Shown here piece after piece: positions 3,793-5,958 of a stretch of DNA of 10,383 nucleotides. Origin of the DNA: an uncultured Eggerthella sp. (GTDB taxonomy: Bacteria > Actinomycetota > Coriobacteriia > Coriobacteriales > Eggerthellaceae). The translations under genes were made by a program, and so were the position numbers. Positions within the stretch are counted from its first letter, which is position 1. The number at the start of each line of letters is the position of its first letter. The notes under the pieces are model-generated. The model was not told the DNA's origin. It ran no database searches and was given only the letters and a program-made list of their open reading frames with translations. The stretch lies in the NCBI GenBank assembly GCA_902470405.1, contig CABRGJ010000013.1, positions 1-10,383 on the forward strand, given 5' to 3'.

Positions 3793-5958
<2,166 letters not shown>

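Follow-up and report, generated by a model that had tools for sequence, protein, structure and literature searches.

The secA gene of the DNA studied here, a stretch of 10,383 nucleotides (the window), carries a TAA codon within its reading frame. The question raised by this locus is whether a SecA protein is truly interrupted at this codon, whether the codon is decoded, or whether the base is wrong.

The interrupted secA frame and its neighbourhood

Translation of the minus strand between positions 3202 and 5958 yielded 721 residues, a stop, 196 residues and a terminal stop in a single frame. This bore out the initial annotation, which had described an in-frame TAA splitting an otherwise intact secA, and it agreed with the product of about 918 residues given there for the full-length protein. 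The gene is open across its 918 codons except at codon 722 (Table 1), where the TAA, preceded by GAT CAT and followed by GAT AAC, is the sole internal stop.

The 721-residue piece contains the DEAD motor (SecA_DEAD, PF07517), preprotein-binding (SecA_PP_bind, PF01043) and P-loop (P-loop_SecA, PF21090) domains required of a housekeeping SecA, followed by the first half of SecA_SW (profile positions 1-100 of 200). The SEC-C zinc motif (PF02810) was found in the downstream piece only, following the second half of SecA_SW (profile positions 111-198); the 196 codons past the stop are therefore still SecA-like in frame, zinc tail included, as had been claimed. With SecA_SW divided in this manner, no single chain holds a complete wing/scaffold domain and the two-helix finger as the sequence stands. 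Because the two pieces match complementary parts of SecA in one frame, secA is a single SecA frame interrupted at one codon rather than two frames that adjoin by chance. The two-helix finger, which we take from the known architecture of SecA to lie in the 196-residue piece, would be consistent with the position of the second half of SecA_SW; loss of this finger should be lethal for SecA.

Table 1. Features of the window, with positions, strand and the basis of each assignment.
Feature	Positions	Strand	Basis
secA, first 721 codons and in-frame TAA	3793..5958	-	NCBIfam SecA equivalog NF009538, 1079 bits; PF07517, PF01043, PF21090, PF07516
In-frame TAA, codon 722 of 918 in secA	3793..3795	-	Frame translation; sense residue in P0002 and relatives
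secA, last 196 codons and terminal TGA	3202..3792	-	SecA_SW second half; SEC-C zinc motif
prfB, release factor 2, intact, terminator TAA	2070..3152	-	TIGR00020, 468 bits (cut-off 370)
Transketolase N-terminal subunit (tktN), uninterrupted, terminator TAA	1210..2043	-	Domain search and terminator
Transketolase C-terminal subunit (tktC), uninterrupted, terminator TAA	243..1217	-	Domain search and terminator
BTAD-domain regulator, 882 residues	6136..8784	-
198-residue protein	9759..10355	-	2,4-diaminopentanoate dehydrogenase C-terminal domain, 27.7 bits (just above the cut-off of 23.3)

On the minus strand the gene order is the 198-residue protein, a small MtN3/SWEET-family protein, the BTAD regulator, secA, prfB and the transketolase subunits, and the plus strand carries tRNA-Gln and tRNA-Glu; all protein genes other than secA are single uninterrupted frames. 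The closest genome found was that of Anaerotardibacter muris (locus L001), to which all eight query pieces from the window aligned, five of them gap-free. For SecA, identity to this genome was 92% over the 721-residue piece and 87% over the downstream one; prfB was 87% identical and the transketolase subunits 87% and 83%, with the same gene order. The arrangement of secA adjoining the prfB and transketolase genes was found both in L001 and in L002, a MAG locus (genome G001) whose SecA is 81% identical.

Three other genes of the window gave observations of their own. The BTAD regulator shares only 44% identity with the corresponding L001 protein, as against 83-92% for the secA, prfB and transketolase genes, and is a fast-evolving gene. 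The tail of the 198-residue protein is rich in histidine, cysteine and lysine, and is possibly metal-binding. The codon-recognition motif of release factor 2, usually SPF, reads SPT in the window, as it does in 74 of the 75 related loci with a release factor 2 match (SPM in the remaining one; 5 of the 80 loci had no match).

A second secA in the same genome could compensate for the interrupted one, the window copy then being a young pseudogene. Among the matches listed, a second SecA_DEAD match above 300 bits occurs in at least 12 of the 138 genomes in G001's family (G003, G042, G043, G056, G057, G065, G071, G084, G101, G106, G107 and G109), which lends this explanation some plausibility. Against it, the window copy stands in the housekeeping position described above, and within the genus of G001 (four genomes), G001 and G014 each gave one SecA protein match; G014 also has a second PF07517 match, which falls outside the matches listed and is thus a weak one. 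The other two genomes, G015 and G016, gave neither a SecA protein match nor a PF07517 match among those listed (G015 a partial DNA match only) and say nothing on secA copy number. A second secA copy is unlikely, and we consider it very unlikely that such a copy accounts for the stop.

The stop column and shortened homologues

When SecA loci from 80 other genomes were compared at the column of the stop, 79 had a sense codon, acidic in 66 of them, and in all 79 the frame was open from the N-terminal match past the stop column into the C-terminal part, three of them then leaving their contig. The 80th locus, L026, has TGA at two tryptophan columns elsewhere; it shows a gap at the stop column in the alignment because its translation ended at an upstream TGA, and by tblastn it has a sense residue there. 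The check on close relatives put forward with the initial annotation thus gave sense at this column in every locus, and an in-frame stop conserved in relatives, as recoding would lead one to expect, was found in none of them. Proteins P0002 to P0015 from the homologue search all carry an acidic residue at the column, which is a variable and not an invariant position of SecA.

Two genomes had been flagged for stops among the matches listed. For G011, with one TAA in its SecA match, tblastn on the stretch L096 found no internal stop, and the flagged TAA is probably the terminal codon; for G032, the single TGA was located at residue 8, away from codon 722. A viral collection searched with the C-terminal SecA piece for related contigs returned 15 pattern matches, none of which encoded a relative.

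The nearest protein among the best 120 listed was P0002 (918 residues), which represents a cluster of 15 member sequences with a longest contig of 153,865 bases. Compared at the protein level, it is identical to the window SecA at 914 of 918 positions, the differences being residues 26, 543 and 603 and the stop at 722, with none across the last 196 residues; a near-identical sequence that lacks the stop, the mark of a spurious pseudogene, therefore exists at the protein level. Residue 543 is threonine in the window and alanine in 76 of the 80 loci; since P0002 also departs there, with valine, the threonine is no evidence of a second sequence error.

Against L001, dN/dS was 0.048 in the codons past the stop and 0.052 in those preceding it, with dS saturated (above 1). 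This points to an absence of decay in the codons past the stop and to equally strong constraint on both sides of it, although the test is a weak one: at three differences from P0002 over 721 codons, less than one would be expected over 196, and most of what is compared with L001 is evolution older than the stop, which the test cannot date.

These data bear on the possibility that the stop is a real nonsense mutation that arose very recently within a single strain or cell lineage; SecA function would then be lost or weak, and the lineage would be dying, or living on residual activity or a suppressor. Residues 26 and 603, at which the window differs from P0002, are sites variable among relatives, so that strain-level variation is plausible, and the absence of decay past the stop fits a very recent event. 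The downstream piece, however, includes the last part of the wing/scaffold domain, the SEC-C tail and, presumably, the finger whose loss should be lethal, and a lethal allele would rarely reach an assembly consensus. We regard a recent mutation as doubtful.

Further information came from the 19 entries of at least 93% identity among the best 120 proteins listed (P0001-P0018 and P0083), 12 of which are full length (918 residues) and seven shorter. The short ones end at 721 (the window's own product, P0001), 853, 853, 708, 672, 662 and 646 residues; only the window's product ends at codon 722, and the two of 853 residues carry different tails. P0011, P0013, P0016 and P0083 finish in sequence that does not resemble SecA, the outcome that a frameshift or an assembly join would give, and P0018 sits on a contig of 3,644 bases. 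With seven of 19 listed homologues short and their ends scattered, truncated SecA calls are frequent in this group and share no single end point. Six of the seven are single-member clusters; the cluster of P0001 has two member sequences on one contig, and the second member might carry the same truncation, which is the main point against a sequence error.

Pieces of the C-terminal end of SecA were also encountered among public proteins: P0122, P0128 and P0129 are 145-160 residues long, have starts at internal methionines and lie on contigs of 5 to 38 kb. P0122 (160 residues; contig of 14,529 bases) aligns to 82% of the downstream part at 93% identity; it represents another broken or contig-edge SecA in a related species, and counts against a sequence error. 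These and other public C-terminal pieces may come from recurrent real splits or from frameshifts, or may be products of contig edges, which give the same pattern.

Possible decoding of UAA, a possible split SecA, and UGA in a related assembly

A protein of 918 residues would result if the UAA were read as sense in the cell, whether through programmed read-through, by a suppressor tRNA or under an altered genetic code. The frame and the SecA sequence do stay intact past the stop, and in one related assembly (L026, genome G064) a stop codon seems to be recoded, although the codon there is UGA. Several results speak against decoding in the window: the stop is unshared by any compared relative; UAA remains a terminator, ending the three adjacent genes tktC, tktN and prfB; prfB is intact; and both tRNAs of the window are standard, with the anticodons CTG (Gln) and CTC (Glu). 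Nor was an unusual stimulatory RNA structure found in the 120 bases downstream of the stop, where a shuffle test gave z = -0.96, with 34 of 200 shuffles folding at least as well. A literature search for SecA with stop codon readthrough found nothing on the subject. Decoding of the UAA is highly improbable.

Alternatively, SecA could be split into two cooperating polypeptides, the second restarted past the stop. In-frame ATGs are available at codons 742, 759, 768 and 774, the public pieces P0122 and P0128 start at a methionine matching codon 759, and the association of N- and C-terminal SecA fragments is on record. No clear ribosome-binding site was seen by eye before these ATGs, an AGGA before codon 774 being too close; the cut falls within the wing/scaffold domain; none of the 80 genome loci is split at codon 722; and the public pieces may merely be contig edges. 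We find a split SecA scarcely credible. It is very improbable that a strain truly has a UAA in its sole secA and lives by decoding the codon or by way of two cooperating SecA pieces; if true, this would be a case of unusual nonsense-codon tolerance in an essential export motor.

The apparent use of UGA in G064 was recorded as an observation in its own right. The SecA of L026 (9992-12781) lies in a 22-kb locus of 37% G+C, in a genome of approximately 1.1 Mb (Coriobacteriia assembly S38M_St_18), and its two TGA codons fall at columns where relatives have tryptophan in 77 of 79 and 79 of 79 aligned loci. Nine frames of the locus were compared, and 12 TGA columns, in four frames, were alignable; tryptophan was the commonest residue at seven of these, some on very few loci, and was not the sole commonest residue at the other five, two of which are ties that include it. 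Several genes of the locus are interrupted unless TGA is taken as a sense codon, and its stop-to-stop frames of at least 150 codons number 16 under code 11 and 24 under code 4 (where some overlap).

G064 has prfA (487 bits), itself with one internal TGA, and no prfB above the family cut-off; the missing prfB is weak evidence alone, because 13 further genomes among the family's 138 also lack a prfB above the cut-off among the matches listed. Among 30 of its 37 tRNA loci were one for tRNA-Trp (anticodon CCA) and one called as SeC (anticodon TCA), and no tRNA-Trp with anticodon UCA was seen. The main texts of papers on bacterial code changes, in a word search, made no mention of Coriobacteri- or Eggerthell-, and no paper was found in the literature by combining code change with words of the Coriobacteriia/Eggerthellaceae type. 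These data, from one assembly that is the only genome of its genus compared, suggest that UGA may be read as tryptophan in a Coriobacteriia lineage, and this deserves more attention than the secA stop.

Origin of the stop and comparison with known systems

The TAA in secA is probably a sequence error. The initial annotation had left a choice between a wrong base, a compensating second secA and read-through; the first is best supported, because a near-identical protein is intact at codon 722 and the other short homologues end elsewhere, and read-through is unsupported, given the unshared stop, the TAA terminators and the ordinary folding downstream. We infer a wrong base rather than a rare real allele. 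The TAA would then be a private single-base nonsense change confined to this assembled sequence, arising most likely from a base-call or consensus error in a contig whose short length suggests that it is probably metagenomic; the organism, a relative of Anaerotardibacter (Eggerthellaceae), would have an ordinary full-length SecA of 918 residues that works in the standard way.

Among the 27,711 possible single-base changes in the seven coding genes of the window, 963 create a stop, and if a consensus is assumed to contain 1e-5 to 1e-4 errors per base, approximately 0.003 to 0.03 spurious stops are expected per such window; lone spurious stops are to be expected when many windows are scanned. 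In itself, the secA stop matters little. The case illustrates that a solitary in-frame stop within an assembled contig can pass for recoding or for a split essential gene, and that such readings are countered by an intact, near-identical protein together with a scatter of private truncations in close homologues. Should a living strain truly have the stop in its sole secA, this would call into question whether SecA has to be one intact chain.

Compared with housekeeping SecA (NF009538 / TIGR00963), the window gene has the domains in order and in one frame, with prfB and transketolase downstream as in L001 and L002, but is broken by one TAA at codon 722. Reassignment of bacterial stop codons (UGA to tryptophan or glycine; PMC8629427) likewise places an in-frame stop inside a conserved gene; the window codon differs in being UAA, in occurring once and at a variable column, and in that UAA still ends the neighbouring genes. 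Many internal-stop pseudogenes in 126,564 public bacterial genomes have been attributed to assembly error (PMC11017572). The secA case shares with such spurious pseudogenes a single internal stop that breaks a conserved gene and is absent from a near-identical sequence, and differs from them in resting on sequence comparison rather than on raw reads.
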